A stretch of 38,879 bases of DNA from a virus: IMG/VR virus record IMGVR_UViG_3300027834_000295, positions 1-38,879 of that record; one strand, written 5' to 3'. The position numbers were made by a program, and so were the translations under genes. The notes beneath the pieces are model-generated. The model searched no databases. It had not been told where the DNA came from and saw only the letters and a program-made list of their open reading frames with translations. Below, one piece after another: positions 1,515 to 14,861 of the stretch (position 1 is the stretch's first letter; every line of letters begins with the position of its first letter).

Positions 1515-1515
1515 C

Positions 1516-1866: not shown

Positions 1867-1867
1867 C

Positions 1868-2191
1868 TCACTCGGCCTCCGCTATCAGTGCTTCAAGGAT
1901 GGCGATCAGCCACGCGCGGGCCATTGAGGTGGCGACACCATCGAAAGTCTTGCATTTAAGCGGACGCGCAACTGACGCCTCGAAAGTATCATCTTCATAT
2001 GTTACGATCTGGATATCCCACCCCGGCAACAGCGCCTCGTGAAGGTAAAGAGCTGAGTCCAGAGAACCGTTCATCGCGCATTCTGCATAAGTGCAAAGCC
2101 CGACTTCATGCCACATCGGGCAAAACATATCGTGTTCATCCTTCCCCGCCTTCACCTTGTCCCGCAGGTCTATCAGTGCTTGCTTGTTCAT
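1868..2191 (-). CDS. Conserved phage protein (LPGW/ARAWL family)
   Basis: A 107-residue protein of unknown function. Visible features are N-terminal MNKQALIDLRDKVKAG, a central GSLDSALYLHEALLPGW, and C-terminal SMARAWLIAILEAL. This combination recurs in early regions of many alphaproteobacterial phages, from memory of the family style. Three cysteines (FCP, LCT, ECAM) lie in the middle and might bind metal. The start overlaps the previous stop as ATGA and is preceded by GAGAGGACGCCCC, one of the recurring start cassettes described in the findings. Confidence 0.78.
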   Translation of the reverse strand: MNKQALIDLRDKVKAGKDEHDMFCPMWHEVGLCTYAECAMNGSLDSALYLHEALLPGWDIQIVTYEDDTFEASVARPLKCKTFDGVATSMARAWLIAILEALIAEAE

Positions 2192-2400
2192 GGGGCGTCC
2201 TCTCGGCCATGTTTCTCCAGCAGCCGGTCATACATGCGCTTAGACAACAGGATCACCGGCTTGTGGATCATGTTGTCGTTTCGGGGCATGACGGTCATTT
2301 GTCCTGCGACCACAAGCGCCGCGATCGCATCCAAGAGATTGTCGCGCTCGCCGTCAGCAATAGCCTGGGCTTCCTTGACCCGGTCCAGCATGTCGTTCAT
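2188..2400 (-). CDS. Small early protein, unknown
   Basis: A 70-residue acidic, helical protein with no recognised domain. A longer frame is open upstream, but ATG 2400 is chosen because it overlaps the previous stop as ATGA and follows TGGAGGACACCCC at ideal spacing. The C-terminus is GREDAP, which is dictated by the start cassette of the next gene embedded in its last codons. It lies in the leftward operon, so it is presumably made early after induction or infection. Confidence 0.68.
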   Translation of the reverse strand: MNDMLDRVKEAQAIADGERDNLLDAIAALVVAGQMTVMPRNDNMIHKPVILLSKRMYDRLLEKHGREDAP

Positions 2401-2639
2401 GGGGTGTCCTCCAGGGCAGATTTGGTGATCTGCGATATATTTGGGTTCCACGTTTCCTCGCTGCTGATTTCAGTCTCGACAGCGTGCAGCGCCGCCCGCA
2501 GCTTGGCGTTCTGCGCTTGCAGGTCGCGGATGGCTTGGGCTGCTTTGGACACCCTGCCAACCATGTCGGAAATATCATCGCTGCCTGAGTAAACTAACGC
2601 GTCCTTGCTCAGTTGCTCCGCTAGATAATCATAGGTCAT
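2397..2639 (-). CDS. Small coiled-coil early protein, unknown
   Basis: An 80-residue protein. Residues about 30-60 (AAQAIRDLQAQNAKLRAALHAVETEI) form a clear coiled-coil heptad pattern, suggesting a dimer. No catalytic motif is visible. It is joined to both neighbours by ATGA overlaps, and its C-terminal ALEDTP again comes from the start cassette of the next gene. A structural or regulatory role is possible but cannot be assigned. Confidence 0.72.
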   Translation of the reverse strand: MTYDYLAEQLSKDALVYSGSDDISDMVGRVSKAAQAIRDLQAQNAKLRAALHAVETEISSEETWNPNISQITKSALEDTP

Positions 2640-2818
2640 TGGCCCGTCTCCTGCTCGTCCCTGTCGATTGGTATCAACATGCGCCTTAGAAATGCATCAG
2701 CGCATGCCGGGCATCTATCGCGCTTCGGGTCCGGCCACGTCAGCACCGCAGCAGGGGTGAACCGCACGCCACATTCACCGCATGGGCGCTCTGTTGGGAT
2801 TTGCACTCTAACGCTCAT
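2636..2818 (-). CDS. Zinc-ribbon protein
   Basis: A 60-residue protein with two CxxC pairs, CGECG at about 16-20 and CPACA at about 39-43, separated by some 20 residues. This is a typical four-cysteine zinc ribbon. Such small ribbons usually bind nucleic acid or another protein. ATG 2818 is preferred over an upstream extension because it overlaps the preceding stop as ATGA. The function is otherwise unknown. Confidence 0.72.
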   Translation of the reverse strand: MSVRVQIPTERPCGECGVRFTPAAVLTWPDPKRDRCPACADAFLRRMLIPIDRDEQETGQ

Positions 2819-3318
2819 GCCCCCGGCTCCTTGTCCAGGAAGGCGATGATGGTTTTTGCGGCGTCTTGGCTGATACCGGCAACCCATCGCGCTGCCTCCC
2901 TCACGCCCCGCTCATATGCCTCCCGCTTCACCTGCTCCAGCGCGGCGAGGTGGTCGGCGTCGGTGCGGGCGCGGATGGCTTTGGCGATGCCGTCAAGTAA
3001 GTTTGACACCGCCGTAACTATTGGCTCCGGGAGTGGCGTATCTCGTAGAAGATTGAGCATTGCTTCAAAGTTTAGATGCGCGCGGTTGCTTTCCACCTTC
3101 TGCGCGCAAGCCTCCCGCTCCGCCGCCACAGCGGCCTTGAGGTGGTCGGCGCGCGCATCAATCGCCTTGATAAGTTCTGGGGCGAGGATGTAATGCGCGT
3201 CCATCTTGCCAAGAGTGTTCTTGGTTTCAACGATCACGCGATCCGCGCCGCGCAATGCACGGGTGAAGACGTCCATCATGTCGGCTTTTTCGGTTTGGCA
3301 GGGTGTTTCATTCGTCAT
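2815..3318 (-). CDS. Helical early protein, unknown
   Basis: A 167-residue, almost entirely helical and charged protein. Two long segments (about 55-80 and 120-145) hold repeated AAxxREA/ERG patterns such as HLKAAVAAEREACAQKVE and HLAALEQVKREAYERGVREAARW, which look like an internal duplication of a coiled-coil unit. No enzyme motif was found. The ATG follows AAGGGAGAGACCG, the second recurring start-cassette type, and overlaps the end of the upstream gene by 11 bases. Confidence 0.72.
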   Translation of the reverse strand: MTNETPCQTEKADMMDVFTRALRGADRVIVETKNTLGKMDAHYILAPELIKAIDARADHLKAAVAAEREACAQKVESNRAHLNFEAMLNLLRDTPLPEPIVTAVSNLLDGIAKAIRARTDADHLAALEQVKREAYERGVREAARWVAGISQDAAKTIIAFLDKEPGA

Positions 3319-3547
3319 CGGTCTCTCCCTTGATCTTGGCGAGGCGTTCTTTTGTTTCCCTGTAAATGCGCCACCGTTCGTCTTTGTCTTCTGTGAACAT
3401 TTCAGAGATGCAGCATGAAAAGTCAGGGCAGCATTCGTCGCACACCCCCTCGTGATACGGCTTGCCCATAGCCCAAGATAGCGTCTGGGTCATAATGCGC
3501 TGTTCGTAATCATGGGGGCGTGGTGGGGCTAGGTTGACTACCATCAT
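3308..3547 (-). CDS. Cysteine-rich phage protein with CCPDFSCC motif
   Basis: A 79-residue protein whose centre reads CDECCPDFSCC, a cysteine cluster of a type I recall from small phage proteins; it probably binds zinc. The C-terminal third is a charged helix (DERWRIYRETKERLAKIK). The start overlaps the preceding stop as ATGA. A second ATG at residue 19 could also serve. Function unknown. Confidence 0.74.
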   Translation of the reverse strand: MMVVNLAPPRPHDYEQRIMTQTLSWAMGKPYHEGVCDECCPDFSCCISEMFTEDKDERWRIYRETKERLAKIKGETDDE

Positions 3548-4041
3548 CCACCGCCCGACTTGTGATCAGCGTATGGCCTTCCGCAACTGGCGCAATCATC
3601 TCCGCCTGCTGCTAGGTCAGGGGAGTACCCAGTGCACTTCCTGAATGCGTTGATACGGTCAATGGTGTCGCGAGCAACGCCATTCATATGCGTGGCCCGC
3701 CATGAGGCGTCTCTGCCTTCGGTGTAGTAGAGGCGTTCAATCTCAGTGATGCCCTCCACCACCTCGGCCAGCCGCGCCTCTGCGGTCTCGGCGCGGGTGA
3801 GGAGGGCGCGGTATGCGACCCAATCATGATCGGAAACGCCGTCTTCGTGAATGAAGCTCATACCGTCTCGTGGCCCTTCGCACCCGTTGGGATGTGAAAT
3901 GCTTTGCGCTTCCTCCAACGTATATCGCCCGGCTTGTATCGCGCTGGTGGTATATCCTCGGCTGTCTGGACCATAGTAATACCCACCTTTACGGATTAGG
4001 TATGCGGGCCGTTCCACCGCTTCTCTGCTGGTGTCAGTCAT
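3544..4041 (-). CDS. Conserved phage protein (GGYYYGP...GYT family)
   Basis: A 165-residue protein with three parts: an N-terminal beta-rich segment PAYLIRKGGYYYGPDSRGYT and GRYTLEEAQSISHPNG (about 12-54), a helical middle, and a C-terminal CASCGRPYADH that looks like a half zinc knuckle. The N-terminal block is common in small proteins of alphaproteobacterial phages and has no assigned role. The start follows GAAGGGAGACCGAC and overlaps the upstream gene by 8 bases. Confidence 0.76.
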   Translation of the reverse strand: MTDTSREAVERPAYLIRKGGYYYGPDSRGYTTSAIQAGRYTLEEAQSISHPNGCEGPRDGMSFIHEDGVSDHDWVAYRALLTRAETAEARLAEVVEGITEIERLYYTEGRDASWRATHMNGVARDTIDRINAFRKCTGYSPDLAAGGDDCASCGRPYADHKSGGG

Positions 4042-4198
4042 GTCGGTCTCCCTTCGTGGCGGCGTTCCAGGCGGCGATCTGCTTCACCTGATATGCTGGC
4101 AGGCACTTGCGCAGATCATCGGTCGAGACAATCCCGCGACGGGTGGCGAGAAAGTCGCTACGGGCCAGCGTGGCGGCTATGCGGTCAGCGGGGGTCAT
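4034..4198 (-). CDS. Small early protein, unknown
   Basis: A 54-residue basic protein. The start at 4198 is chosen over an upstream extension because it forms ATGA with the preceding stop and sits behind CGAGGCCACCCC. That start context is identical over 19 bases to the start at 7757 on the other strand. The sequence is helical (DRIAATLARSDFLATRRG; DDLRKCLPAYQVKQIAAW) with no recognised domain. Confidence 0.62.
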   Translation of the reverse strand: MTPADRIAATLARSDFLATRRGIVSTDDLRKCLPAYQVKQIAAWNAATKGDRHD

Positions 4199-4449
4199 GG
4201 GGTGGCCTCGTCGGATTCTTCGACGCCCGCCGCACGATCCACCGCCCGGTCGATCTGATCGGCTGCGCTTCGCAATTCGGCGGCAAGCTCTTTGGTCCCG
4301 ACAACCGTTGAAATCACGTCGCCGCCCCTGATAGCCTTTCGCAACGTTACCAGCGGAATGCGCCGGTAATCGGCGGCGGAAACTACCTCTGAATCTATCC
4401 ACAGAAACCAGTCGCCTACGCGCTGACCTGCTTTTGTTGTTTTTGCCAT
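4195..4449 (-). CDS. Small early protein, unknown
   Basis: An 84-residue protein with a lysine-rich N-terminus, a W-F-L-W strand and a C-terminal acidic helix (ELAAELRSAADQIDRAVDRAAG). The C-terminus SDEATP is set by the start cassette of the next gene. The ATG follows AAAAGGAGATGTGAG at good spacing. No domain recognised. Confidence 0.7.
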   Translation of the reverse strand: MAKTTKAGQRVGDWFLWIDSEVVSAADYRRIPLVTLRKAIRGGDVISTVVGTKELAAELRSAADQIDRAVDRAAGVEESDEATP

Positions 4450-4450
4450 C

Positions 4451-4498
4451 TCACATCTCCTTTTCCGCGCCTGGGGCGCTCAGGGTTTCGGGGGTCAT
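4451..4498 (-). CDS. Possible 15-codon mini-gene in the overlap chain
   Basis: The peptide is MTPETLSAPGAEKEM. Its ATG overlaps the stop of the preceding 19-codon frame as ATGA, and its last codons contain the GGAG of the next gene. It may serve only to carry ribosomes through the operon rather than encode a functional peptide. The evidence is the continuous stop/start chain, not sequence similarity. Confidence 0.3.
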   Translation of the reverse strand: MTPETLSAPGAEKEM

Positions 4499-4554
4499 CT
4501 CACAATCCCCAGCGGCTCGTCGCGGATTTCTGCGAAGGGTGGGAGGTCAATCAT
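4495..4554 (-). CDS. Possible 19-codon mini-gene in the overlap chain
   Basis: The peptide MIDLPPFAEIRDEPLGIVR starts inside the end of the preceding membrane-protein gene (8-base overlap) and ends in ATGA with the next mini-frame. Together the two mini-frames fill a roughly 100-base gap that would otherwise break the coupled operon. There is no upstream ribosome binding site of note, so it would depend on coupling. Confidence 0.33.
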   Translation of the reverse strand: MIDLPPFAEIRDEPLGIVR

Positions 4555-4762
4555 TGTTCCGGTCCTTCACATATGCCGTGACAATCAATGCGGCGGGGGT
4601 GACGATCCAGATGAGAGCGGGAACGATCCACAGGCCCGCGCTTAAGGCGATTAAGCTCGTGACCATCAGAGCACCGAAAAATACGAAGGTGAGAACGATT
4701 ACAGAAGGAATTACATACCAAGGTGCTTCATCACTAAGCCATTCAAAGAAACTCCACATCAC
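4547..4762 (-). CDS. Small two-helix membrane protein
   Basis: A 71-residue protein with two strongly hydrophobic stretches, about 15-40 (YVIPSVIVLTFVFFGALMVTSLIAL) and 43-63 (GLWIVPALIWIVTPAALIVTAYV), then a charged tail KDRNND. It is predicted to be an inner-membrane hairpin. It lies in the early operon, so it is unlikely to be the lysis holin; superinfection exclusion or membrane anchoring is possible but is inference. ATGA overlap with the upstream gene. Confidence 0.75.
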   Translation of the reverse strand: MMWSFFEWLSDEAPWYVIPSVIVLTFVFFGALMVTSLIALSAGLWIVPALIWIVTPAALIVTAYVKDRNND

Positions 4763-5088
4763 TCAGCCTCCCATACCAGCTTGACGGGCTTTCCGTCGTG
4801 AAGGGTGAGGGTGTAGGTGCCGGGGGTCGGGCATTCGAGAACAAGGTATTCGTCTTGAAGCGGACGCCATTTGCTATCGGTTGCCCGGCCAGTCCGCCCC
4901 GTCCTTGTCTCCACCACTGGGGATGGCTTGACGCGGTAGGCTACTTGGCAACTCCAATGGGGGTTAATAGGAATCCATCTCCCGAAAGATCCGAACACCT
5001 CATAAGGCCCGCCATGCGCTTTGAGCGAGTCTTGCGTTTCCTTGTCGAGTAGGCCGAAAGGGGTTGTGAGTTTGGTTAGATCAGTCAT
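4759..5088 (-). CDS. Small early protein, unknown
   Basis: A 109-residue protein, beta-rich, with an N-terminal helical part (LTTPFGLLDKETQDSLKAHGGPYEVFG) followed by Trp/Arg-rich strands (WIPINPHWSCQVAYRVKP, KWRPLQDEYLVLE). The pattern resembles small phage proteins that begin by recognising a G-P-Y/E-V-F turn; no function is known to me. The start follows AAAGGGAGAAAGACCA and overlaps the upstream stop as ATGA. Confidence 0.73.
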   Translation of the reverse strand: MTDLTKLTTPFGLLDKETQDSLKAHGGPYEVFGSFGRWIPINPHWSCQVAYRVKPSPVVETRTGRTGRATDSKWRPLQDEYLVLECPTPGTYTLTLHDGKPVKLVWEAE

Positions 5089-5306
5089 TGGTCTTTCTCC
5101 CTTTCGGTCGCGTCGATCATGGCAAGCGTGACCTCGCAGAACTGGCGCAGGCCTTCCGGCGACAGGCTGACAACAGCCCCGAGGGAAATCTCCGCATCGC
5201 CGCTGTCGTGAACGCTGAGAATGAAGTTGCCCGACTGCGATGGGTGGTGTTCGGCGGAAACGCTGAAATCATTCCAGTCGGTCCGCCCGTTCATTGTTAC
5301 CCGCAT
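5085..5306 (-). CDS. Small beta-rich early protein, unknown
   Basis: A 73-residue protein consisting of alternating strands (NFILSVHDSGDAEISLGAVVSLS) followed by a C-terminal helix. ATG 5306 shares its A with the previous stop codon (TGATG), so the in-frame upstream extension is judged spurious. No recognised domain. Confidence 0.66.
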   Translation of the reverse strand: MRVTMNGRTDWNDFSVSAEHHPSQSGNFILSVHDSGDAEISLGAVVSLSPEGLRQFCEVTLAMIDATEREKDQ

Positions 5307-5584
5307 CACGCCACCTCCCGCAGCCAAGCTGGCATCTGGTATCCGCGCTTCTGGCGGTAGCGGTTGCGAATGCGTTCCTCGGCGTCGGCGGTCACGTCGA
5401 TACAGATCCCGCAATCGGTGTCCCGTGGTTGGCGCGGTTCAATGAGAAACACGCAAGCCTCTTGGCCCTCGTCGCGGCGCTCTGCGTAGGCGTCACATGC
5501 CCCGTCAAAGTCGGTCGGGTCGCAGGCGTGGCCTAGCGCACCGTCATAAAGGGCGTAGGTGACATAGTGGGGGGTAGGGTTCAT
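5306..5584 (-). CDS. Small early protein, unknown
   Basis: A 92-residue acidic protein with four cysteines (HACDP, GACDA, EACVF, DTDCGICI) that could form a metal site. The C-terminal RNRYRQKRGYQMPAWL is basic. It is linked to its neighbours by ATGA at 5581-5584 and TGATG at 5306. No catalytic motif was recognised. Confidence 0.7.
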   Translation of the reverse strand: MNPTPHYVTYALYDGALGHACDPTDFDGACDAYAERRDEGQEACVFLIEPRQPRDTDCGICIDVTADAEERIRNRYRQKRGYQMPAWLREVA

Positions 5585-5793
5585 TGCTCCGGCTCCGTGA
5601 CATGAATTTGCTGGAATACGGCGAAACGCTCGCGCTGATGCAGCGATGTAAGGCGCTCGGCCTCTGTCTTTGCCGCCTCGAATGTGGGGTGCTCAAACGG
5701 CAATGTGTTTTTGGCCGATATGCGGTTAGTCTTCTTGCCCCGGCGGAATACAAAGAATCCGCCCCCAACTTTCTCTCCGTTTCGTTCTTTCAT
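5581..5793 (-). CDS. Small early protein, unknown
   Basis: A 70-residue basic protein. The N-terminus KVGGGFFVFRRGKKTNRI forms a strand-turn-strand and the middle is a helix (FEAAKTEAERLTSLHQRERFAVFQ). It looks like a small single-domain nucleic-acid-binding or adaptor protein, but that is only an impression. ATGA overlaps on both sides. Confidence 0.68.
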   Translation of the reverse strand: MKERNGEKVGGGFFVFRRGKKTNRISAKNTLPFEHPTFEAAKTEAERLTSLHQRERFAVFQQIHVTEPEQ

Positions 5794-6032
5794 TGCTTCC
5801 GTCCTTCCATGTGCGCCAGCCGTCCGACGCGGTGTTCAAGTTCGACAAGCAGACGCGCGTCCAAATCCGGGCGGGATTCCAGAACTTCCAGAAACGCCTC
5901 AATCTGGGCCGGAAGTGGCAGGTCGCGCTGTGCGTCCGTTGCCATGAGGTAGTCGGCGCGATACTTGGCGAGGCGCGCAACGTGCGGGTCGCTCTGGCCG
6001 GGGATCGGGCGAAGGCGGGGGTGCTTGGTCAT
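5790..6032 (-). CDS. Small helical early protein, unknown
   Basis: An 80-residue helical protein (PLPAQIEAFLEVLESRPDLDARLLVELEHRVGRLAH). ATG 6032 is selected because it forms ATGA with the stop of the upstream zinc-binding gene; the frame also extends further upstream without support. Function unknown. Confidence 0.67.
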   Translation of the reverse strand: MTKHPRLRPIPGQSDPHVARLAKYRADYLMATDAQRDLPLPAQIEAFLEVLESRPDLDARLLVELEHRVGRLAHMEGRKQ

Positions 6033-6409
6033 GCTGTAATCCCCCGCGCGGCAAGGTGGTCGCGCCATTTGATGTCGGAGATCTGCTCGTGGAACTCCAT
6101 GCGCGTCACAGGGCCGGGGAATTTTCCCCTGTATGAATCGCAGAGGCTCTGGAACTCGCCACTATTACCCCACTCCTCTCGGATCGGCGGGTATCCATCG
6201 TCAAAATCATAGAAGCTAAATCCAGCGTCAGACTCGTATTGCTTCCATAGGGCTTCGCAGTCATCGTGGATGCGGAGGCTGTAAACGTAATCGTATTTGC
6301 ATGTAGACTTGCGGTGCGCCTCGCCCGGCACGATCCATCCGCCGCAATGGAAGCAACGGTGGTGCTTTCGGGCGCGGGGGCGCTCATCGGAGATAAGCTC
6401 AACGCTCAT
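6029..6409 (-). CDS. Zinc-binding treble-clef-like phage protein
   Basis: A 126-residue protein whose N-terminal half holds C19-x2-C22 (RCFHCGGWIVPGEAH), C37, and H48-x2-C51 (IHDDC). The pattern R-K-x-H-x-C-x2-C-G-x-x-I-x-P-G with a later H-x2-C is a common phage zinc-binding family of unknown function. The C-terminal half is Trp/Phe-rich and may bind a partner. ATGA overlaps with both neighbours place it firmly in the operon. Confidence 0.78.
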   Translation of the reverse strand: MSVELISDERPRARKHHRCFHCGGWIVPGEAHRKSTCKYDYVYSLRIHDDCEALWKQYESDAGFSFYDFDDGYPPIREEWGNSGEFQSLCDSYRGKFPGPVTRMEFHEQISDIKWRDHLAARGITA

Positions 6410-6801
6410 GAAGTCACCTCCGGCGCTGCAAGCAGGTTCTCGGTCATGGCCTGAGAACCTTGGCGCAGGGGCGACATGACTTCATCGGGCAGGTTGAGCG
6501 CGTGGCCTTCGTCAATCACGCCGCCCAGCTTCTTCTGCCAGTTCTGTTTGGCGGCGGTGTCGGGGTCGGGAAGGCTGGCGATATAGTCGGAAGCGGCTGT
6601 CAGGAGGCCGTCAATGCTGTCGCCGGAAATGATCTTGTAGCTATCTCCGCCGAAGGGCTTGGTGTCGTATTTCGCATTGAGGTGCATGGAGTACCTTCCG
6701 CCAGACTTCTGCAGAAGCGTCACCTCCGGCAGCTTGATCCCGGCGTCCGTCATCGCAGCCGCAATGGCATCGAGGCGCTTTTGTGTTTCTTCGTGGGTCA
6801 T
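6406..6801 (-). CDS. Early protein, unknown
   Basis: A 131-residue protein: an N-terminal helix (EETQKRLDAIAAAMTDAGIKLPEV), a beta segment (GRYSMHLNAKYDTKPFGGDSYKII), then helices. ATG 6801 is chosen because GGGAG lies 8 bases upstream, whereas the earlier in-frame ATG at 6816 has no ribosome binding site. It is the second gene after the leftward promoter. No family recognised. Confidence 0.72.
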   Translation of the reverse strand: MTHEETQKRLDAIAAAMTDAGIKLPEVTLLQKSGGRYSMHLNAKYDTKPFGGDSYKIISGDSIDGLLTAASDYIASLPDPDTAAKQNWQKKLGGVIDEGHALNLPDEVMSPLRQGSQAMTENLLAAPEVTS

Positions 6802-6836
6802 CGTCGGTTCTCCCATGTGGCGGGTTGCGGGGTGGG

Positions 6837-7067
6837 TTAGGCGGCGGAGCGGCGGGCCATTTCGAGACCAAGGCGCGCGGCATCTTCGCGAAAACGCTTG
6901 TTCAGCATCTTGGCGGTGGTCGCGTCATAGCCGGTGATCTGGGCGGCGCACTCACAAGCATCGACGTTCAGGTCCACATCGGGCAGGCGGCGCATCGGGT
7001 AGTTTGCCATCGCGTTCAGAATGTTTTCTGCGCTGGCAACCTCTGCGGTGAATTCTTCGTAGGTCAT
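6837..7067 (-). CDS. First gene of the leftward early operon, unknown
   Basis: A 76-residue, mostly helical protein. It starts about 28 bases downstream of the predicted transcription start of the leftward promoter and has a strong AGAGGGAG six bases before the ATG. First position in an early operon often belongs to antitermination or anti-host proteins, but nothing in the sequence shows that. The C-terminus is basic (LNKRFREDAARLGLEMARRSAA). Confidence 0.73.
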   Translation of the reverse strand: MTYEEFTAEVASAENILNAMANYPMRRLPDVDLNVDACECAAQITGYDATTAKMLNKRFREDAARLGLEMARRSAA

Positions 7068-7101
7068 TTCGTTCTCCCTCTGCCGGTGTGGCTATGGGGA
7101 A

Positions 7102-7130
7102 CATCTAACAAAAGTGCAGATGGCTGTCAA
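7102..7130 (-). promoter_or_regulatory. Leftward early promoter with embedded operator
   Basis: Read on the minus strand: TTGACA (plus 7125-7130), a 17-base spacer, then TAGATG (plus 7102-7107). The 19-base ATCTGCACTTTTGTTAGAT (plus 7103-7121) starts 3 bases after the -35 box and covers the spacer and -10. The same layout is present in the rightward promoter, so this is the likely repressor/Cro target controlling the leftward operon. Confidence 0.72.
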
Positions 7131-7194
7131 ACAAAAAGTTATATGCTAAAATGCAAAAACACGACCAAAGCGGAATCACCTTGGCGTAAAAGTC

Positions 7195-7458
7195 TTACGA
7201 TGCGAGGAGGGTTCTGCGTTCGCCAGATATAAGCGTATCGAGTGACACGTTTGTTAACTTGGAAATGCGCTGAAGGTGAAAAAGGTTTGGCTCAGTTTCA
7301 GCGGCTTCCCAACGCCTATAGGTGGCCTCTGCTACGCCTAGAATCTTGGCGAAGTCGCGCATGGTCTCATAACCAGCAGCGACACGCGCAGCTTCCAGGC
7401 GGCGCGCGAATGCAACGCGATATTCGGCAGAGGCTTTGGGAGGGCGTTTTGCAGGCAT
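7195..7458 (-). CDS. HTH_XRE lysogeny repressor (CI-like)
   Basis: Helix-turn-helix repressor of 87 residues, with RDFAKILGVAEATYRRWE at 34-51 as the HTH and a following helix pair ending in SLDTLISGE. It lacks the C-terminal peptidase domain of lambda CI, so it is a short repressor. It sits between two promoters bearing matching operators, as expected for the prophage repressor. The start is uncertain: ATG 7458 gives a typical length, but its GAGGG is too close; GTG 7494 or TTG 7557 are in frame, and the latter would overlap the Cro gene on the other strand. Confidence 0.82.
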   Translation of the reverse strand: MPAKRPPKASAEYRVAFARRLEAARVAAGYETMRDFAKILGVAEATYRRWEAAETEPNLFHLQRISKLTNVSLDTLISGERRTLLAS

Positions 7459-7506
7459 GCCCTCATGATGAATGATTTCTTGTAATGCTGTCACGTGAGC
7501 TTTCCG

Positions 7507-7535: not shown

Positions 7536-7541
7536 GCAGAT

Positions 7542-7760
7542 ATGAGGTATCCAGCAAAACTTATCAAGGGCAGGTTCGGAACAGTGGAGGCATTCGCCGC
7601 CGCCGCATCCAGTCACAAGCTCGCCCCAAGAAGGCTAGACGGCACCAAGCGAACGCTGGACCGGGCAGCCGTTTATATGTGGAAGCGCCGGGAGCACGTG
7701 CCATTCATGTGGCAGCCAGTTGTCGAGGCGCTTTCAACGGAAAGCGAGGCCACCCCATGA
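7542..7760 (+). CDS. Cro-like DNA-binding protein
   Basis: Predicted Cro-type repressor, 72 residues. Its pattern is LIKGRFGTVEAFAAA for the first helices, then AAVYMWKRREHVPFMWQPVVEAL for the recognition and support helices. The W-K-R-R-x-x-V-P-x-x-W-x-P-V-V-E-A-L signature is typical of Cro-like proteins in alphaproteobacterial prophages. It is the first rightward gene, divergent from the repressor, and would shut down early promoters. No ribosome binding site precedes the ATG, and the promoter places the start of the mRNA near it, so translation may be leaderless. The C-terminus is SEATP because of the next start cassette. Confidence 0.82.
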   Translation: MRYPAKLIKGRFGTVEAFAAAASSHKLAPRRLDGTKRTLDRAAVYMWKRREHVPFMWQPVVEALSTESEATP

Positions 7761-7897
7761 CCCTTCACGGCATCCTGAGCGCGGCAGGGACTCCGCGCGT
7801 GTCTCCTCTCCCTCCCATCCGGCTTCGAGTTCTGGGCCGGACAACTTCCCGCTCCCTTCGGGGGGCGGGCCTTTCGGGGGGGGTGACGCATGACTGA
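7757..7897 (+). CDS. Possible small coupled ORF after the Cro gene
   Basis: A 46-residue basic peptide rich in Arg, Leu and Gly. It starts in an ATGA overlap behind CGAGGCCACCCC and overlaps the next gene by 8 bases, so it bridges the two. Much of it is encoded by a strong GC hairpin (7848-7869), which makes the amino-acid sequence look incidental. It may be a translated leader rather than a functional protein. Confidence 0.4.
   Translation: MTLHGILSAAGTPRVSPLPPIRLRVLGRTTSRSLRGAGLSGGVTHD
7848..7869 (+). promoter_or_regulatory. Strong UUCG-capped RNA hairpin
   Basis: Arms CCCGCTCCC (7848-7856) and GGGGGCGGG (7861-7869) pair over 9 positions (one G-U) around a TTCG loop closed by C-G, an unusually stable tetraloop. 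No T run follows, so it is not a standard terminator. It ends 20 bases before the DUF3310 gene start and may act in RNA processing, attenuation or translation control. Confidence 0.6.
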
Positions 7898-8093
7898 CAT
7901 GGTAAATCATCCGCCGCATTACACGGCGCACCCGTCCGGAGTCGAGTGCATCCAGATCACCGAACATATGAATTTCTGCCTCGGCAACGCGCTCAAATAC
8001 ATCTGGCGCGCTGACCTGAAAGGCGGCGTCGAGGATCTGGAAAAGGCGGTTTTCTACCTCAACCGTGAAATCGAAAGGCGGCAAGGCACATGA
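7890..8093 (+). CDS. DUF3310 family phage protein
   Basis: A 67-residue protein matching the DUF3310 (SaV-like) pattern: VNHPPHYTAHPSGVECIQI, then FCLGNALKYIWRADLKGG, then a DLEKAVFYLNREIERR helix. Family members are very common in phage nucleotide-metabolism and replication regions, often beside thymidylate or helicase genes, but I know of no defined activity. It is coupled to the resolvase gene by an ATGA overlap at 8090-8093. Confidence 0.9.
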   Translation: MTDMVNHPPHYTAHPSGVECIQITEHMNFCLGNALKYIWRADLKGGVEDLEKAVFYLNREIERRQGT

Positions 8094-8566
8094 GGATTAT
8101 TGGCATTGATCCCGGCTATTCATCCGGCGCTGTTGGCGTAATTGATGAAGGCGGCGCGCACGTCTATGACACGCCCCTTATCGGTGGCGGCGGCGTCAAT
8201 TGCCGCGACCTTCTCGACATCATCCAATATCATGAAGTCGATCACATCTTTGTCGAGCGCGTTGGCTCTATGCCACGTCAAGGTGTCAGCACGACATTCA
8301 AATTCGGCATGGGGAACGGAATGGTTCTCGCTGCCGTGCAGATCGCGCGCGTCCCATACACACTCGTTACGCCCGCCAAGTGGAAGGCGCACCACAGGCT
8401 TCCAAAGGACAAGGATGCGGCGCGCGCCAGGGCGCTTCAATTGTTCCCGTCTCTCTCCAGTTCACTCGCCCGCAAGAAAGATGCCGATCGCGCTGAGGCG
8501 CTTTTGATCGCCGCTTACGGCGTGGACGCGATGCGCGGCGCTCATGTGGATGGAATGACGACATGA
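8090..8566 (+). CDS. RuvC-like Holliday junction resolvase
   Basis: Predicted RNase H-fold endonuclease of 158 residues that resolves branched DNA before packaging. The acidic active-site positions are visible: D7 in IGIDPG, E56 in FVERV, and the D131/D133 cluster in KKDADRAEALLIAAYG. SMPRQGVSTTFKFG (about 60-73) is the hallmark block of the phage RuvC subgroup. Length fits the family. It is coupled on both sides by ATGA overlaps to the DUF3310 and nuclease genes, forming a recombination/replication cluster. Confidence 0.88.
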   Translation: MRIIGIDPGYSSGAVGVIDEGGAHVYDTPLIGGGGVNCRDLLDIIQYHEVDHIFVERVGSMPRQGVSTTFKFGMGNGMVLAAVQIARVPYTLVTPAKWKAHHRLPKDKDAARARALQLFPSLSSSLARKKDADRAEALLIAAYGVDAMRGAHVDGMTT

Positions 8567-9312
8567 ATGGATTTGAGAAACACAACATCGGCCACCTTTC
8601 GGCATCCAGCATCAACCTCTGGACAAACGCGCCTGACGTTTGGGTCGCGCGTTACCTGCTGAAGAAATCAACACCCTTTGGCCCCGCGCCGGAACGCGGC
8701 AAATCCGTGGAAAAGGCAGTTGTTCACACGCTTATGGGCGAAGACTTCGAGACCGCCATGAAAGGTGCGCTTGATGACTTCGACCGCCGCTTTCTGATCG
8801 GTGATGAGAAGACCACAAAAGAGCGCGACCTGATCAGGCCGATGGCTGAAATCGCCATTGATGAGCTGAAGGAATACGGCGCGCCAGAGTTTGAGACAGG
8901 CACCGACCAGGAAAAGATCAACATCACCGCAAACGGCGGTGACTGGAAGATTGCGATCTGGGGGTTCCTCGATCTCGTCTACCCAAAGCATGGGCTGGTC
9001 GTGGATCTGAAAAGCACCACGCGCATTCCGTCAAAAATGTCGGCAGATCACCAGTTGCAGCGCGCCATCTACGCCAAAGCGAAGGGCAACAGCGCGGTGA
9101 AATTCCTCTACGTCAGCGCGAAGAAAGCGGCGTGGCTGGAAGACGGTGACGTTGCCGAAACGCTGGCGCGGGCCAAGACGCAAATCGCGCGGATGGAGAA
9201 ATTCCTGAGCCTGCATGATGCGGATAGCGCAGCCGCCTGCGTCCCGGTCAACCCAAACAGTTTTTACTGGAACGGCGCTGAATCCCTCCGGTCTGAAATC
9301 TTTGGCCTCTAG
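8563..9312 (+). CDS. RecB/Cas4-like PD-(D/E)XK nuclease
   Basis: A 249-residue nuclease predicted to act as exonuclease in phage recombination or replication. The RecB-family sites are visible: an early HLSASSINLW helix, GKSVEKAVVH (about 47-55), D137 in GFLDLV, the catalytic D148-x-K150 in VVDLKST, and Q164 or Q166 in HQLQRAIYA. No four-cysteine iron-sulphur set like that of Cas4 is present, so it belongs with the phage PDDEXK_1-type exonucleases. It follows the resolvase with an ATGA overlap and precedes an SSB-like gene, a typical exonuclease-plus-annealing/SSB neighbourhood. Confidence 0.85.
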   Translation: MNGFEKHNIGHLSASSINLWTNAPDVWVARYLLKKSTPFGPAPERGKSVEKAVVHTLMGEDFETAMKGALDDFDRRFLIGDEKTTKERDLIRPMAEIAIDELKEYGAPEFETGTDQEKINITANGGDWKIAIWGFLDLVYPKHGLVVDLKSTTRIPSKMSADHQLQRAIYAKAKGNSAVKFLYVSAKKAAWLEDGDVAETLARAKTQIARMEKFLSLHDADSAAACVPVNPNSFYWNGAESLRSEIFGL

Positions 9313-9365: not shown

Positions 9366-9383
9366 ACGACAAAGGAAATAGAC

Positions 9384-10016
9384 ATGGCATTTGACATCGA
9401 CACAGGCTCCCAAGGCAGCCAAGGCCCTTGGATCGCATGGAGCGCGCGGGGAACGCTGGACGGGGTGATTGAGCCCAAGTCCTTCTACCTGCGCGACGAG
9501 GGCGGAAAGAAGCCACTCGACGCTTTCAACAAGGGCGTCGTGATGGACATCTACGGCATGAAAACCGGCTGGCAGAAGTCGGAAGGCATCGCCGGTCAAG
9601 CACCGGATTGGAAGTGGAACGCAACCGTTTCCCAGATGATGCCGCAGCCCGGTGAGGACTTCAAAAAGGGCTTCTCCATCCCGTGCGCGATCAGCAAGAC
9701 CGAAATGGCAACCTGGGAACAGGCCGGGGCGGCGGCGTGGAACGCCTTCACCAACCTTGTGCCTGCGCTTCAGCAAGCACCAGAGGGCAAGCTGCCCGTG
9801 GTGAAACTGACCGGAACGCAGCTTGAGCAGTTCAAGCGCGGATCCACCGTCACGCCCATCCTTGAGGTCACGAAGTGGGTGGATCGCCCGGATTGCCTGA
9901 AGGAAGGCGTCCAGGCGGGCATCGACACCGGCGACCAAGCTCCGGCACAGGCACAGCCCGCCCAACAAGCTCAGGCTGCACCCGCACCGGAAACGGCAGA
10001 AGTCGACGAATTCTGA
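9384..10016 (+). CDS. Single-stranded DNA-binding protein candidate
   Basis: A 210-residue protein with an aromatic-rich beta-type N-terminal domain (about 1-165; for example GPWIAWSARG, DIYGMKTGWQ, WKWNATVS), then a flexible Ala/Gln/Pro linker (about 180-202) and an acidic tail ending EVDEF. Globular domain, low-complexity linker and acidic tip with final Phe is the architecture of bacterial SSB and of T7 gp2.5, where the tail recruits partners. I do not see a canonical OB-fold signature. Placement between the nuclease and the primase-helicase supports the role. AAAGGA precedes the ATG. Confidence 0.62.
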   Translation: MAFDIDTGSQGSQGPWIAWSARGTLDGVIEPKSFYLRDEGGKKPLDAFNKGVVMDIYGMKTGWQKSEGIAGQAPDWKWNATVSQMMPQPGEDFKKGFSIPCAISKTEMATWEQAGAAAWNAFTNLVPALQQAPEGKLPVVKLTGTQLEQFKRGSTVTPILEVTKWVDRPDCLKEGVQAGIDTGDQAPAQAQPAQQAQAAPAPETAEVDEF

Positions 10017-10034
10017 GCGCGCCGACACCAACCG

Positions 10035-10056
10035 CCTGCGCCCTACGGGGCGCGGG
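10035..10056 (+). promoter_or_regulatory. UACG-capped RNA hairpin before the primase-helicase
   Basis: Arms CCTGCGCCC (10035-10043) and GGGCGCGGG (10048-10056) pair over 9 positions around a TACG loop closed by C-G, a stable UNCG-type tetraloop. It fills most of the 72-base gap between the SSB-like and primase-helicase genes. With no T run after it, an intrinsic terminator is unlikely. It matches the size and loop class of the hairpin at 7848-7869. Confidence 0.55.
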
Positions 10057-10088
10057 CAACCCAATAACACGGATTGAGGGATTCGATA

Positions 10089-12254
10089 GTGGTGCCGGAA
10101 AACAATGTGACCATCGCAGATGCAGACGAAATCCGGCGCGATCTGGAATACATGACCGCGCGCTGGCATGAGCTGGACACAGCCGCCGTCTTTGAAATCC
10201 GCGCCTTCAAGGAAGATTGCCCCCCGAAATCCGCCAAGTTCTCGCCAGACTGGATGGATGACGCCGTTGAGTGGTGCGAGTCCATGAACGGTCTGGGCTA
10301 CAACATCTATTGCGTCAGAAACCCGATCCGCCACAACGCAGGATCCGGCAGCGCATCGGACGGCGACATTCTCGCAGCCTTCTTTCTCTGGGCGGATTGC
10401 GATGATACCGAATCCGCCAGCAACGTGAAACGGTTCGACGGCCCGAAATACTCCGCCGCCGTCACCACGGGTCGCACCCCAAGCACCCGCGTTCACGTCT
10501 ATTGGCAGCTTGAAGAACCATGCACGGATATGGCGGCATGGCGGGCCATGCAGTCGCGCATCGCCACGCATTTCAATTCAGACAGGGCCGTCATCAACCC
10601 ATCGCGAATCATGCGCGTCGGCGGCACGGTGTCATACCCGTTCAAGAAAAAGCAGGAAAAGGGATACGTCAAGGAACTGACCACCATCCGCACCGAATAC
10701 CCTGACGCCCGTGAGCGCGTCACGATGGAGCAGATGGACCGGGTGTTCGCAGACGCGCCCCAGAACGCCGCACAGCCCGCTACAGGGGCCTTGCAGATAG
10801 ACACGGGGCCGCAGCCGCTGGATCGCGCCCTTGCCGCCGCAAACATCATGGCAGGCACGGACTGGCGTGAGAACGTCAAGAAGCTGGTGGCGTCCTACGT
10901 GGCGCGCGGATGGACAGACGACGAGATTATCGGGCGGTGCCTCGCCTTCACCCTGCCGGGGTGGACGCAAGACGAAACAGCTCAGGACGTGGCGGCGTTC
11001 ATCAAGTGGACCCGCGAACAGGAGGCCAGGAGCGGCGGGCAATATGCCGTCAGTCCTGAAGCCAACGGCGATGACCACCAATTCCGGGAAATGACGGATG
11101 AAGAAAAGGACGCCGTTGAACCCATGCTGTTTGAGCCGTGGGGGAATCGCGACCTTGCAGCAATTCCATATCCCGAATTTGTATATTCTGATTTCTACGC
11201 TCGGGGCTACACGTCCGTAACGCTGGCACCGCCCAAGGTCGGCAAGTCCATGCTGGGGCTAGCAGAGGCGCTGGACATGGCATCCGGCGCAGGCATTCTG
11301 ACCGGCGATCAGCGCGACAAGATGCGCGTGGTCTACTACAACGCGGAAGACGATCAGAACGTCATTGATAGCCGCGTGGCGGCGCTTCTCGGCTTCTATA
11401 AGATCGACCAGACCGAAATCGCGGAAACGCTGTTTCCGGTTTCCGGTGTCGAGCGCGATGATTTTTTCATGATTTCAGGGCAGGATGGCGTCATCAATGA
11501 ACGCCTGTTCGTGGCCCTCGAAAAGTTCATCGAGGCGCAGCGCGCGGACGTTCTGATATTTGACCCGCTGCAAGACCTTTCGCACAGCCCGGAAACGAAT
11601 GAGGTGTTCCGGCTTCTCGGGCAGCGCCTGCGCCGCATGGCGGCAAAGACGGGCGTTGCACTCGGGCTTATCCATCACACGCGCAAGATAGCACCGGGGC
11701 AGACCGCCACCATAGAAGACGGGCGCGGCGGTAGCGCACTGCGCGGAACCGCCCGCTTTAACCGCCTTCTGGTCAGCATGACGGAAGATGAGGCGGCAAA
11801 GGCAGGCGTTGAAAACCATCGCCACTTCATGCGGATCGGTGACATTGAAAGCAACCTCGCGCCGCCTTCATCTGACGTGAACAGGTGGTTTGAAAAGATA
11901 TCAGTCACCATCCCCAATGGTCGGGATGTGGGGGCTATCCGCACTTGGAACTGGCCTGACGCATTTGATGGCATAACGCGCCAGCATGCGGGGCGGGTTC
12001 GCGCACTGGTTGATCAGTCCCTGACGCCACCACGCTATGACATCCGGGCATCCGCCTGGGTCGGGGAGCTTGTGGCGGACGCAACGGGCCTCAATCTGGC
12101 AGACAAGAACCACAAGGCCCGCATCAAGACCATCGTGGATAAATGGATTGAAAGTGACGTTCTCAGGGTCACTGAAGAAGAAGACAAGCGCGCCGGACGC
12201 ACCCGCAAGGTCGTGATTTGCGGCTCAAATGATCCACTTCAGGAGGCGCGCTGA
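10089..12254 (+). CDS. Primase-helicase fusion (RepB-type primase plus RepA-type ATPase)
   Basis: Replication initiator/helicase of 721 residues. The N-terminal part (about 30-220) resembles RepB/prim-pol-type primases: FFLWADCDD (DxD acidic site), RVHVYWQLEEP (conserved His), and INPSRIMRVGGTVSYP. The C-terminal part is a RecA-fold ATPase: Walker A APPKVGKS near residue 385, YYNAEDD, Walker B VLIFDPLQDL near 490, GLIHHTRK, then GGSALRGTARFN, as in hexameric RepA helicases. GTG 10089 is chosen because GAGGG lies 8 bases upstream; TTG 10074 lacks a site. It probably opens and primes the candidate origin lying just after it. Confidence 0.87.
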   Translation: MVPENNVTIADADEIRRDLEYMTARWHELDTAAVFEIRAFKEDCPPKSAKFSPDWMDDAVEWCESMNGLGYNIYCVRNPIRHNAGSGSASDGDILAAFFLWADCDDTESASNVKRFDGPKYSAAVTTGRTPSTRVHVYWQLEEPCTDMAAWRAMQSRIATHFNSDRAVINPSRIMRVGGTVSYPFKKKQEKGYVKELTTIRTEYPDARERVTMEQMDRVFADAPQNAAQPATGALQIDTGPQPLDRALAAANIMAGTDWRENVKKLVASYVARGWTDDEIIGRCLAFTLPGWTQDETAQDVAAFIKWTREQEARSGGQYAVSPEANGDDHQFREMTDEEKDAVEPMLFEPWGNRDLAAIPYPEFVYSDFYARGYTSVTLAPPKVGKSMLGLAEALDMASGAGILTGDQRDKMRVVYYNAEDDQNVIDSRVAALLGFYKIDQTEIAETLFPVSGVERDDFFMISGQDGVINERLFVALEKFIEAQRADVLIFDPLQDLSHSPETNEVFRLLGQRLRRMAAKTGVALGLIHHTRKIAPGQTATIEDGRGGSALRGTARFNRLLVSMTEDEAAKAGVENHRHFMRIGDIESNLAPPSSDVNRWFEKISVTIPNGRDVGAIRTWNWPDAFDGITRQHAGRVRALVDQSLTPPRYDIRASAWVGELVADATGLNLADKNHKARIKTIVDKWIESDVLRVTEEEDKRAGRTRKVVICGSNDPLQEAR

Positions 12255-12439
12255 TGACCGGTATTTCCACAGTCTTCCACAGTCTTCCACAGTTCACCAC
12301 ACCAACTGTGGAACACTCCCCGCGCCCCACCACCACAGTTTCCCTGTGGGGTGTGGGGAGTGTGTGGTGGAAGCGTGGAAATCAAAAAAATCGTTCATCG
12401 CACACACACAGTCCCACAGTTCAGGAGAAATCGGCATGA
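12254..12439 (+). CDS. Possible small ORF spanning the candidate origin
   Basis: A 61-residue peptide rich in His, Thr, Ser and Pro. It has an excellent AGGAGG 7 bases before its ATG and ATGA overlaps at both ends, which argue for translation. However, it is encoded by the repeat/dyad cluster, so its sequence is largely dictated by DNA repeats. It may be a functional peptide, or simply a way to carry ribosomes across the origin. Confidence 0.42.
   Translation: MTGISTVFHSLPQFTTPTVEHSPRPTTTVSLWGVGSVWWKRGNQKNRSSHTHSPTVQEKSA
12263..12369. repeat. Candidate replication origin: phased DnaA-box-like repeats and a long dyad
   Basis: Three direct copies of a 9-mer (ATTTCCACA at 12263, TCTTCCACA at 12273 and 12283) lie exactly 10 bases apart, with an inverted copy at 12307-12315. 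Each is one mismatch from the DnaA box TTWTNCACA. They are followed by a nested dyad: CACCACAC (12296-12303) with GTGTGGTG (12362-12369), ACACT (12313-12317) with AGTGT (12359-12363), CCCCAC with GTGGGG (12325-12330/12353-12358), and CCACAG with CTGTGG (12333-12338/12344-12349). Position directly after the primase-helicase suits an origin. Confidence 0.6.
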
Positions 12440-12669
12440 ACAAGAAAGCATGGCTCATCGTGCAGACGCATCTATCGGCGTCTCCGAACATGAAGGAAAT
12501 CAAATCGAACTTCCTCACCGGGAGCGGAACACTCGTCGCGTTCTCGCTGGATGGCTATTACTACGACAAGGAAATGGCGCGCGGTGTTGCGCAGCACATG
12601 AAGGTGACACATCCCAAGCTGACAACACACCTACTTGAGGTTGTGGAGACGTGGGAGGGCGAAGAATGA
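12436..12669 (+). CDS. Small phage protein, unknown
   Basis: A 77-residue protein (MNKKAWLIVQTHLSASPNMKEIK...) with an alpha/beta pattern of short strands and a C-terminal acidic helix. An AGGAG sits 8 bases before the ATG, and ATGA overlaps link it to both neighbours. No family recognised. Its place between the candidate origin and further replication-operon genes suggests early expression. Confidence 0.72.
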   Translation: MNKKAWLIVQTHLSASPNMKEIKSNFLTGSGTLVAFSLDGYYYDKEMARGVAQHMKVTHPKLTTHLLEVVETWEGEE

Positions 12670-13244
12670 ACAAGCGCCCCCGCCGCCAGAAAAAGGGCGA
12701 CCGTCTCCTGGATCGGGACGCCACGCAAAATGAAATCATGTGCGACAAGGCCGTCGCGGTGATGGATCGTCTCGCCATCCAGATGGATGAACGCTGGGGC
12801 GTGGATCGCCTGCCCGAACTGGTCAGCATCGAGACCGCTCAGAAATACGGGGCGGCACTCGCCAAGCTCAACGCCGCACTGAAAGCTGGCGACCCCAAGG
12901 AGGTCGCGCATCGGGCGCAGGTCTGCATGAGGGGCCTCAAGGCGATGAACGACGAAGCCGAGGCAGCGGGCCAGCCCAAGGCATCCGCCGATTATTGGGA
13001 ATACGATATCGACGGCTTCAAGTTCGCCGTGATGAAGGACGGCGGGCATTGGATGGCCTGCAAGGACGCAAGGCCGGATCTGCGGTTCTTCACCATGCGC
13101 GAAATCGGCGTGGCGCTGCGCGCCCTGAATATCGACAACCCGATCTTTGCCGAAATCAAGAAACACTTCCCGCAAGCCCAGATCGACAGCATCGCGGAAC
13201 GGGCGACCGACCGCGAAACGCTGGACGATCCAATCCCCTGGTAA
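12666..13244 (+). CDS. Replication-operon protein, unknown
   Basis: A 192-residue protein with a very basic N-terminus (NKRPRRQKKGDRLLDRD) that could contact DNA, a helical middle (about 45-105), and a beta-type section YWEYDIDGFKFAVMKDGGHWMACKDARPDLRFFTMREIG. The last residues are acidic (RETLDDPIPW). The length and order look like a genuine phage gene with conserved style, but I cannot name its function. ATGA overlap upstream. Confidence 0.74.
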   Translation: MNKRPRRQKKGDRLLDRDATQNEIMCDKAVAVMDRLAIQMDERWGVDRLPELVSIETAQKYGAALAKLNAALKAGDPKEVAHRAQVCMRGLKAMNDEAEAAGQPKASADYWEYDIDGFKFAVMKDGGHWMACKDARPDLRFFTMREIGVALRALNIDNPIFAEIKKHFPQAQIDSIAERATDRETLDDPIPW

Positions 13245-13256
13245 GGAGGCCAGACC

Positions 13257-13637
13257 ATGCTTCAATCACAACGCGACACCACCCGGCTCTGCCAGAAGTT
13301 CACCGAGCCGCGACGGGTCAAGCCATTCGACAGCTACAGCCAGGACGAGCTGCGCTTTCGCATGATGGAACTGGACGGGTGCAACGGGCGCTTGCCGCCG
13401 GACCCACGCCCGCTATCCGGCGAATCCGCCCGCGCAAGTTCCGAGGTCAAGCGCCGCCGCATGGAGATTGCCGACGCGATACGCAAGGCAGGCGTGATGA
13501 CGCTTCCCGATGTCCGCGAGGTGTTCCCGCATGTGAATCCAGAGTCGATCAAGAGCGACCTGCGCCGCCTCAAGGCCGAGGGCGTTCTCAGCAACAGGCA
13601 CATCGCCAGCAACGTTTGGGAATGGAGGGCGGCGTGA
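13257..13637 (+). CDS. Winged-helix-like DNA-binding protein
   Basis: A 126-residue basic protein. Residues about 70-125 (IADAIRKAGVMTLPDVREVFPHVNPESIKSDLRRLKAEGVLSNRHI...WEW) read as a winged helix: three helices with the V-N-P-E-S-I-K-S-D-L-R-R-L recognition region and a beta hairpin. The N-terminal half contains an S-Y-S-Q-D-E-L-R-F-R-M-M-E-L helix. An AAGGAGG precedes the ATG. It may regulate later genes or assist replication; this is inference. Confidence 0.72.
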   Translation: MLQSQRDTTRLCQKFTEPRRVKPFDSYSQDELRFRMMELDGCNGRLPPDPRPLSGESARASSEVKRRRMEIADAIRKAGVMTLPDVREVFPHVNPESIKSDLRRLKAEGVLSNRHIASNVWEWRAA

Positions 13638-14440
13638 TGAATCCTTACACCTTGCCCGACCGCAACGTGCATATTGCTTTTAGCGGTGGTCGCACCAGCG
13701 CCTATATGCTGCATCAGATTCTTGAGGCCAACGGTGGATTGCCGGATCGGGTGCGCGTGGTCTTTGCAAACACCGGGCGAGAAATGCCTGAAACGTTGGA
13801 CTTTGTGCAGGAGTGCGGCAGTCGATGGGGCGTCCCGATTGTATGGGTCCAGTATATCCCAGTAGACCCGTGGTTTGAGGTTGTCAGCCACAACAGCGCA
13901 GCGCGCGACGGTGAGCCGTTTGAAGCGATGATTCGCCACAAGCGGTATATTCCGAACGGTCGTAAGCGCATCTGCACCGATCAATTAAAGGTCCGGACCG
14001 CAAAGCGGATGCTTGTGGCGGAAGGCTGGAAGTCATGGGTGAAGGCGCTTGGAATTCGCGCCGACGAACCTGACCGGCACGACATGCCAGACCAGCCACG
14101 CGAACGGATATGGATGCCCATTGTTGACGCTGGCGTTACTCGTGATGTGGTGATGCGGTTCTGGCGTGGGCAACCGTTCGACTTGCCTGCTGGAACCGTC
14201 AGCAACTGCCGCCTGTGCTTCCAGTTTCAGCGAGCCAAGCTGGCGTTTCAGATGCTCAACGACCCGAAAGACGACTGGCCTGAGCGCATGGAGGCAATCG
14301 GCCTTGGTACGTTTCTGGGTGATCGACCTTGGCGTGAGTTCCGGGCGGCAGTCGAGGCACAAGGCGATCTTTTGATTGATTGGAAGGAGCCAGCGCGCTC
14401 GCCATGCGGCGCAGCAATGGACGGGGAGTGTGTTGGATGA
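13637..14440 (+). CDS. PAPS reductase-like PP-loop enzyme
   Basis: A 267-residue member of the adenine-nucleotide alpha-hydrolase (PP-loop) superfamily, nearest in style to phosphoadenosine phosphosulfate reductase-like proteins. The PP-loop SGGRTSAYM is at 16-24, followed by VVFANTGREMPETLDFV. Cysteines C113 (RICTDQ), C191 and C194 (NCRLC), and C257 and C265 near the end could bind an iron-sulphur cluster or carry sulphur. Phage copies are often annotated this way without a known substrate. The start shares a base with the previous stop (TGATG). It is coupled to the next gene, suggesting a shared nucleotide- or nucleic-acid-modifying role. Confidence 0.87.
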   Translation: MNPYTLPDRNVHIAFSGGRTSAYMLHQILEANGGLPDRVRVVFANTGREMPETLDFVQECGSRWGVPIVWVQYIPVDPWFEVVSHNSAARDGEPFEAMIRHKRYIPNGRKRICTDQLKVRTAKRMLVAEGWKSWVKALGIRADEPDRHDMPDQPRERIWMPIVDAGVTRDVVMRFWRGQPFDLPAGTVSNCRLCFQFQRAKLAFQMLNDPKDDWPERMEAIGLGTFLGDRPWREFRAAVEAQGDLLIDWKEPARSPCGAAMDGECVG

Positions 14441-14832
14441 AGGTTTATGTGGCAGCGCATTGCAGGTGGGCGGCGTGTCATGTTGCGGATGCTCTCCGCT
14501 CTGCGGGGGTCAATGTGATTTCGTCGTGGCATGGAAAGGCGTTCTTGCCGACCGAAACTCATACTGAACAAGAGCGCCGAGAGATTGCCATAGAGGACGC
14601 ATCAGAAGTCATGGATTGCGATGCCTTAGTGTTGGTCGCCGGGAAAGAAAAATACAGTGGCGGAAAGTTTGTTGAGGCAGGAATAGCCATCGGCCTTGGC
14701 AAGCGCGTGGTCGTTCTTGGGCGGCGCGAAAACATGCTTCTTTGGCATCCACTGGTGACAAGCGTGGAGGAACCAGAGGACATATCGGGGGCACTATATG
14801 ACCTGTCAAGCCGCGCAGAGGCACAGATATGA
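14437..14832 (+). CDS. Nucleoside 2-deoxyribosyltransferase-like protein
   Basis: A 131-residue Rossmann-like protein. MKVYVAAHC forms the first strand, IEDASEVMDCDALVLVAGK (about 52-70) the acidic strand region, and GGKFVEAGIAIGLGKRVVVLG (75-95) holds the E80 position corresponding to the catalytic Glu of nucleoside 2-deoxyribosyltransferases. These transfer deoxyribose between bases; related short phage proteins may remodel nucleotides or hydrolyse N-glycosidic bonds. ATGA coupling to the upstream PP-loop enzyme is notable. Family-level confidence is good; the substrate is unknown. Confidence 0.8.
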   Translation: MKVYVAAHCRWAACHVADALRSAGVNVISSWHGKAFLPTETHTEQERREIAIEDASEVMDCDALVLVAGKEKYSGGKFVEAGIAIGLGKRVVVLGRRENMLLWHPLVTSVEEPEDISGALYDLSSRAEAQI

Positions 14833-14861
14833 CCCGCAAAACTATGGAGGACACCCCATGA
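14829..14861 (+). CDS. Possible 10-codon mini-frame carrying a start cassette
   Basis: The frame MTRKTMEDTP begins in ATGA with the previous stop and ends in ATGA with the next start. Its last codons are the cassette TGGAGGACACCCCATGA, identical over 17 bases to the one at 2400 on the minus strand. It probably functions only to couple translation. Confidence 0.28.
   Translation: MTRKTMEDTP

Follow-up and report, generated by a model that had tools for sequence, protein, structure and literature searches.

A repeated ribosome-binding site with overlapping stop and start codons as a probable gene joint in a temperate phage

The precision with which phage mosaics are joined at gene boundaries has long called for an explanation. 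Short conserved boundary sequences were proposed for lambdoid phages, and gene 68 of Island3 is flanked by a duplicated 3′ end of approximately 50 bp; most phage mosaic joints, however, are described as lacking any recognizable sequence of this kind (PMC3029335). Another class of short repeat, the Start Associated Sequences (SAS), recurs in cluster K mycobacteriophages, where its role is given as unknown (PMC3203893, PMC12699233). Here we describe a translation-start cassette that recurs in a virus record of 38,879 bases (IMGVR_UViG_3300027834_000295), the whole of which is termed the window, and we compare it with both of these systems.

The window begins with a gene for a tyrosine integrase (positions 1–963, + strand), followed by some 20 small genes, overlapping and arranged in an array (960–7067, −) that runs toward an excisionase-like gene (960–1229) adjoining the integrase, a repressor, and then rightward replication, packaging and structural genes. 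The phage is temperate. Its recombination genes include those for a RuvC-like Holliday junction resolvase (8090–8566, +) and a PD-(D/E)XK exonuclease (8563–9312, +), and no ERF protein was recognized in a search of the window. In most relatives a conserved gene (9384–10016, + in the window) lies 3′ of the exonuclease gene; the fold class of its product is unknown, and assignment as an SSB or annealing protein was rejected for want of an assignable fold or solved-structure match, although the product may be a putative SSB-like or recombination accessory protein. Two further genes deserve mention in their own right. One (13637–14440, +) is an auxiliary gene resembling phosphoadenosine phosphosulfate reductase, and the other (7890–8093, +) is a DUF3310 gene with 74–80% DNA identity over approximately 175 nt to homologs in many mycobacteriophages (e.g. 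Omnicron and Kratio), in Gordonia phages and in Sulfitobacter phage phiGT1, which is unusually close given the distance between the hosts.

The cassette consists of GAGG, a 7 nt spacer and ATG, and the upstream gene terminates at the TGA contained in ATGA. Exactly five copies of GAGGNCNCCCCATGA occur in the window, each at a gene start and each overlapping the upstream stop codon, and no others appear when one mismatch is allowed. These searches confirm the observation made in a sequence-only reading of the same DNA, which had listed the five copies with their strands and had noted two identical pairs. On the minus strand, GAGGACGCCCCATGA (2188–2202) forms the start of gene 1868–2191 and the end (EDAP-stop) of gene 2188–2400, GAGGACACCCCATGA (2397–2411) forms the start of gene 2188–2400 and the end (EDTP-stop) of gene 2397–2639, and GAGGCCACCCCATGA (4195–4209) forms the start of gene 4034–4198 and the end (EATP-stop) of gene 4195–4449. 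On the plus strand, GAGGCCACCCCATGA (7746–7760) is the end (EATP-stop) of a small gene opposite the repressor (7542–7760), and GAGGACACCCCATGA (14847–14861) is the start of gene 14858–15070, where the upstream frame again terminates in EDTP-stop. The copies at 2400 (−) and 14858 (+) share TGGAGGACACCCCATGA without a difference, and those at 4198 (−) and 7757 (+) share CGAGGCCACCCCATGACCC, where the exact run reaches 19 nt; exact identity between copies ranges from 8 to 19 nt.

The upstream frames all end in E-(D/A)-(T/A)-P because their stop codon is the TGA inside the block. The earlier statement on this shared ending holds for all five frames, but what had been counted as a ‘protein’ with its end at 14861 is an open reading frame of only 10 codons, MTRKTMEDTP (14829–14861, +), located between gene 14380–14832 and the cassette. 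It is possibly the remnant of a deleted gene, as it resembles the start and end of a gene without its middle. Similarly, all five starts do carry the block, but the frame that opens at 7757 is doubtful as a gene: it has 46 codons, no homolog was found for it, and its GC2 of 0.65 is like that of non-coding sequence, so that this copy may not mark a true gene start.

Gene 2188–2400 (−, 70 amino acids) has a cassette at both ends. The adjacent gene 1868–2191 (−, 107 amino acids, phrog_23823) has a 61% homolog in gene 66 of phage phiGT1, and that gene ends in CCAAGGAAACCCCATGACCCTT, with ACCCCATGACCCTT in common with the 7757 site of the window. A second repeated start block, GGAGGCCGAGTGAGATG, is found in the left arm at 1514 and 1866, bracketing gene 1516–1866 (−, 116 amino acids), and neighbouring starts in the left arm are more alike than in shuffled order (p = 0.007). 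A third, looser start context, like GGGAGA(N)ACCGA and followed by ATGAC, is seen on the minus strand at 3318, 4041, 5088, 6801 and 7067.

The count against shuffled sequence that had been proposed as a check gave 0.06 copies of GAGGNCNCCCCATGA expected in shuffled window sequence against the five observed, a number reached in none of 100 shuffles. As a ribosome-binding site is expected at any start, we also used a stricter null in which each upstream column was shuffled among the 58 gene starts, so that the Shine-Dalgarno signal was kept, and scored the bases upstream of ATG. Against this null, five pairs of starts agree at 12 or more of 16 bases (0.6 expected, p = 0.0004) and two pairs at 14 or more (0.007 expected). 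GAGG occupies positions −11 to −8 at 15 starts in the window, and the spacer NCNCCCC follows it at five of these and at none of the other 10; most starts in the window have spacers other than that of the cassette.

Among relatives of the window, one contig (L006) matches it over 9078 nt with 0 differences, a region that includes the 7757 junction. Apart from this identical contig, the cassette is absent from contigs carrying the replication proteins of the window, and thus it is not conserved with the genome backbone. Apart from L006, no close relative covers the cassettes other than those of gene 2188–2400, and exchange at the window's own copies was not seen directly. For gene 2188–2400 a single homolog was found (L069, 79% identical), with the match confined to the gene body; both of its flanking junctions differ from those of the window and match each other (GRARAAAGACGATGAGT), and the gene upstream of it resembles its counterpart in the window only along a short coiled-coil stretch. 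Scans of genome contigs with the 8563–9309 protein and the 14858 family found no relative that could serve for a comparison with host prophages, and scans with the proteins of 1868–2191 and 4195–4449 gave no matches. In ordinary relatives there was no genome-wide excess of repeated starts (2 pairs, compared with 1.1 expected).

The sequence-only reading had also suggested that genes are shuffled by recombination at these boundaries, and had advised a search of related phages for gene gain or loss at the cassette. Such cases are present in other phages that carry it. The cassette scan identified three related phage contigs, in each of which copies lie between consecutive small genes of an accessory array. 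There are five copies in G003 (L138), three together with the variant GATGCCGCCCCATGA in G002 (L097 and L082), and three in G004 (L135); in G003 and G002 the array leads straight into the excisionase and integrase genes. The upstream genes all end in DTP-stop (or DAAP-stop), and exact identity between copies is 8–18 nt. With J denoting the cassette, the gene orders are A-J-Y′-J-U-J-Z1-J-Z2-J-xis, A-J-T-j-Y-J-Z-J-xis and Y-J-V-J-...-J-Z″, and they differ at J. When Z2 was removed in silico between its two cassettes in G003, the product matched G002 across the junction (Z1 tail-J-xis) for 373 nt at 100% identity. Z2 is precisely present or absent at the cassette, as a loss or a gain. Gene Y is identical at 372 of 390 positions (95%) between G002 and G004, but the genes that flank it in the two contigs are unrelated, upstream as well as downstream.

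The ends of homologous blocks in these arrays were located relative to the cassette, with related HSP ends counted separately, and 16 of the 25 ends fall within 12 nt of a cassette ATG. Random shifts of the cassettes place 2.8 ends within 25 nt, and 16 was reached in none of 20,000 trials. The remaining nine ends are 146–237 nt away, and all lie in coiled-coil linker repeats like RIAELEAEIERLR. The small array genes of L138, L135, L097 and L082 share this linker, and N-terminal heads and C-terminal tails are swapped there; it is a second, intragenic shuffling joint. The recombination reading thus finds its most direct support in other phages, and, in the window itself, indirect support from the one homolog with both junctions replaced. 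The three contigs that provide the direct cases are metagenomic and not closely related to the window, and their junctions could conceivably be assembly chimeras formed at short repeats.

Bracketing of genes by similar start junctions extends beyond this cassette. Among 1606 mechanically found overlapping starts at 176 loci, where adjacent starts were those on the same strand 120–700 nt apart, junctions identical at 13 or more of 16 positions were found for 13 of 958 adjacent pairs, compared with 5 of 9804 other within-locus pairs. With tighter de-duplication and only loci that had not been chosen by motif, the odds ratio at 12/16 was 14 (p = 7e-5) when the window was included and 15 (p = 0.001) when it was left out; at 13/16 it was 36 (p = 0.002) and 22 (p = 0.02), respectively. 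Permutation of contexts within loci gave 1.3 cases against the 7 observed, and none of 300 trials reached that number. Unrelated genes are clearly bracketed in this way in three independent cases, namely phiGT1 gene 32, L125 and L158; a pair in L183 was left out owing to an internal protein repeat. Gene 32 of phiGT1 (L072, 25173–25397, −) is bracketed by the perfect 19 nt repeat ATGAAGGGGGAGAGTGATG, which comprises the upstream gene end, ribosome-binding site and start. No empty site was found for the phiGT1 accessory block, which its nearest relatives do not share. Tandem gene duplication was rejected as a source of the repeats, as the bracketed genes are not paralogs, except for the partly alike Z1 and Z2 in G003. 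Given that the genome-wide recurrence test was negative in relatives, the effect is one of local bracketing of single genes rather than of one master sequence per phage.

We consider it probable that the block, which combines an ordinary ribosome-binding site with overlapping stop and start codons, became a repeated gene joint, and that its copies at unrelated genes are alike by descent from one another through recombination. Every upstream gene ends in (D/A)(T/A)P-TGA inside the block and every downstream gene begins at the same ATG, so that exchange or deletion between two copies would leave a working stop, ribosome-binding site and start between the new neighbours. Any recombinant join should thus be translatable, and single genes could be gained, lost or swapped without harm to reading frames or coupled translation. 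Phage or host recombination would make use of the short homology, and the ATGA overlap would allow coupled re-initiation, by which recombinants could be expressed at once. The coupling signal, a Shine-Dalgarno sequence with an ATGA overlap, can be read from the sequence itself and is consistent with translational re-initiation, and the shuffling and selected-coupling readings put forward earlier are compatible. The ERF-family annealing protein encoded by G004, a protein annotated likewise in phiGT1, and the RuvC-like and exonuclease genes of the window support the recombination route without proving it. By analogy with the array phages, we infer that the five copies in the window arose in the same way.

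Convergent selection on one good translation-coupling signal, with a Shine-Dalgarno sequence, an A/C-rich spacer and ATGA, would instead make the copies alike by function and not by kinship. Indeed, a scan of viral contigs recovered the 16-mer GGAGGACACCCCATGA in 66 stretches and AAGGAGACACCCCATGA in 49; nearly all of them stand at ATGA junctions between genes, and most are single copies in unrelated phages with a GC content of 0.35–0.73. This shows that GGAGGACACCCCATGA is a usable ribosome-binding site that also arises by convergence. As a full account convergence is unlikely, as other spacers serve most starts in the window, the sharing of non-pairing spacer bases exceeds what column composition accounts for, matches are far commoner between adjacent starts than between distant ones, genes have been exchanged at the block in the three array contigs, as their flanks show, and cassette starts have no better predicted RNA accessibility. 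Less likely again is a regulatory role like that envisaged for SAS, in which a phage or host RNA or protein would bind the block and co-regulate the five genes. As in SAS, conservation extends beyond the Shine-Dalgarno sequence to non-pairing bases (ACCCC), the copies belong to non-structural genes in both arms, and GACACCCCATGA is absent from two Ruegeria megaplasmids (NC_006569 and NC_008043; 1.3 Mb), but within a single operon the copies are distributed patchily over adjacent genes, the cassette is missing from the phage's relatives and from those of the many homologs of the 14858 family that are found in 15 other phage contigs, where start contexts vary, and gene 2188–2400 has different junctions on both sides in L069.

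Recombination could also be illegitimate and occur anywhere, with selection for joins at gene ends, so that the block would be a by-product and not a guide to crossover. Illegitimate recombination has been described as an attractive mechanism of phage mosaicism (PMC3029335), and the surviving breakpoints do all lie at functional joints, where selection of viable joins would likewise place them. This explanation also seems improbable to us, since the crossovers fall within 16–27 nt of shared sequence instead of being scattered near gene ends, and since inserted genes have a copy of the junction on each side; these features suggest that the shared sequence guides crossover. Finally, the motif is short and the contigs are metagenomic, which would favour chance or an assembly artefact. 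For the repeat itself this explanation is largely refuted and we regard it as very improbable, as the excess over shuffled sequence survives the column-shuffle null, L006 repeats the 7757 junction without a difference, and phiGT1, a complete genome with a named host, has a gene bounded by a perfect junction repeat.

If descent by recombination is correct, start-junction repeats may be a general device in the accessory arrays of temperate phages, although we offer this extension tentatively. A lineage-specific ribosome-binding site/stop/start joint would be copied on gene entry and reused on exit, giving snap-on/snap-off gene content, and within those arrays the second joint, at coiled-coil linkers, would shuffle the heads and tails of proteins. 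Here the boundary sequence is visible and coincides with the translation start, and the gene loss that it predicts agrees with a second contig to the base. Any phage collection can be tested cheaply by looking for single genes that lie between repeated start junctions and for the corresponding empty sites.

Both boundary sequences and start-associated repeats were already known; we found no repeat of ribosome-binding site, stop and start acting as a boundary sequence in the literature searched, which comprised open-licence papers. Like the SAS of cluster K, the cassette is a Shine-Dalgarno-containing repeat just upstream of the starts of unrelated non-structural genes, where it occupies the position of the ribosome-binding site, and has conserved non-pairing bases ending in CCC. 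The SAS consensus GGGATAGGAGCCC (two or fewer deviations, 11–19 copies) is not enriched in the window, where 3 matches with two mismatches were found compared with 1.0 expected. SAS mostly precede genes more than 50 bp from the upstream gene, whereas every cassette copy in the window overlaps the upstream stop, and SAS are conserved with their gene families, with no gene exchange reported at them in the section consulted.

The lambdoid boundary sequences and the Island3 repeat are likewise short repeats at gene or module boundaries, across which homologous recombination explains gain, loss and exchange. In keeping with a boundary sequence, one short sequence stands at several module boundaries of one phage, and related genomes differ exactly between copies in G002, G003 and G004 and, by the indirect evidence of L069, in the window. 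The cassette differs from those systems in that the boundary itself is a ribosome-binding site with an overlapping stop and start, 12–20 nt in length, and in that three to five copies per genome lie between many unrelated genes. The window is set apart in turn by having its copies in both arms and in both orientations.
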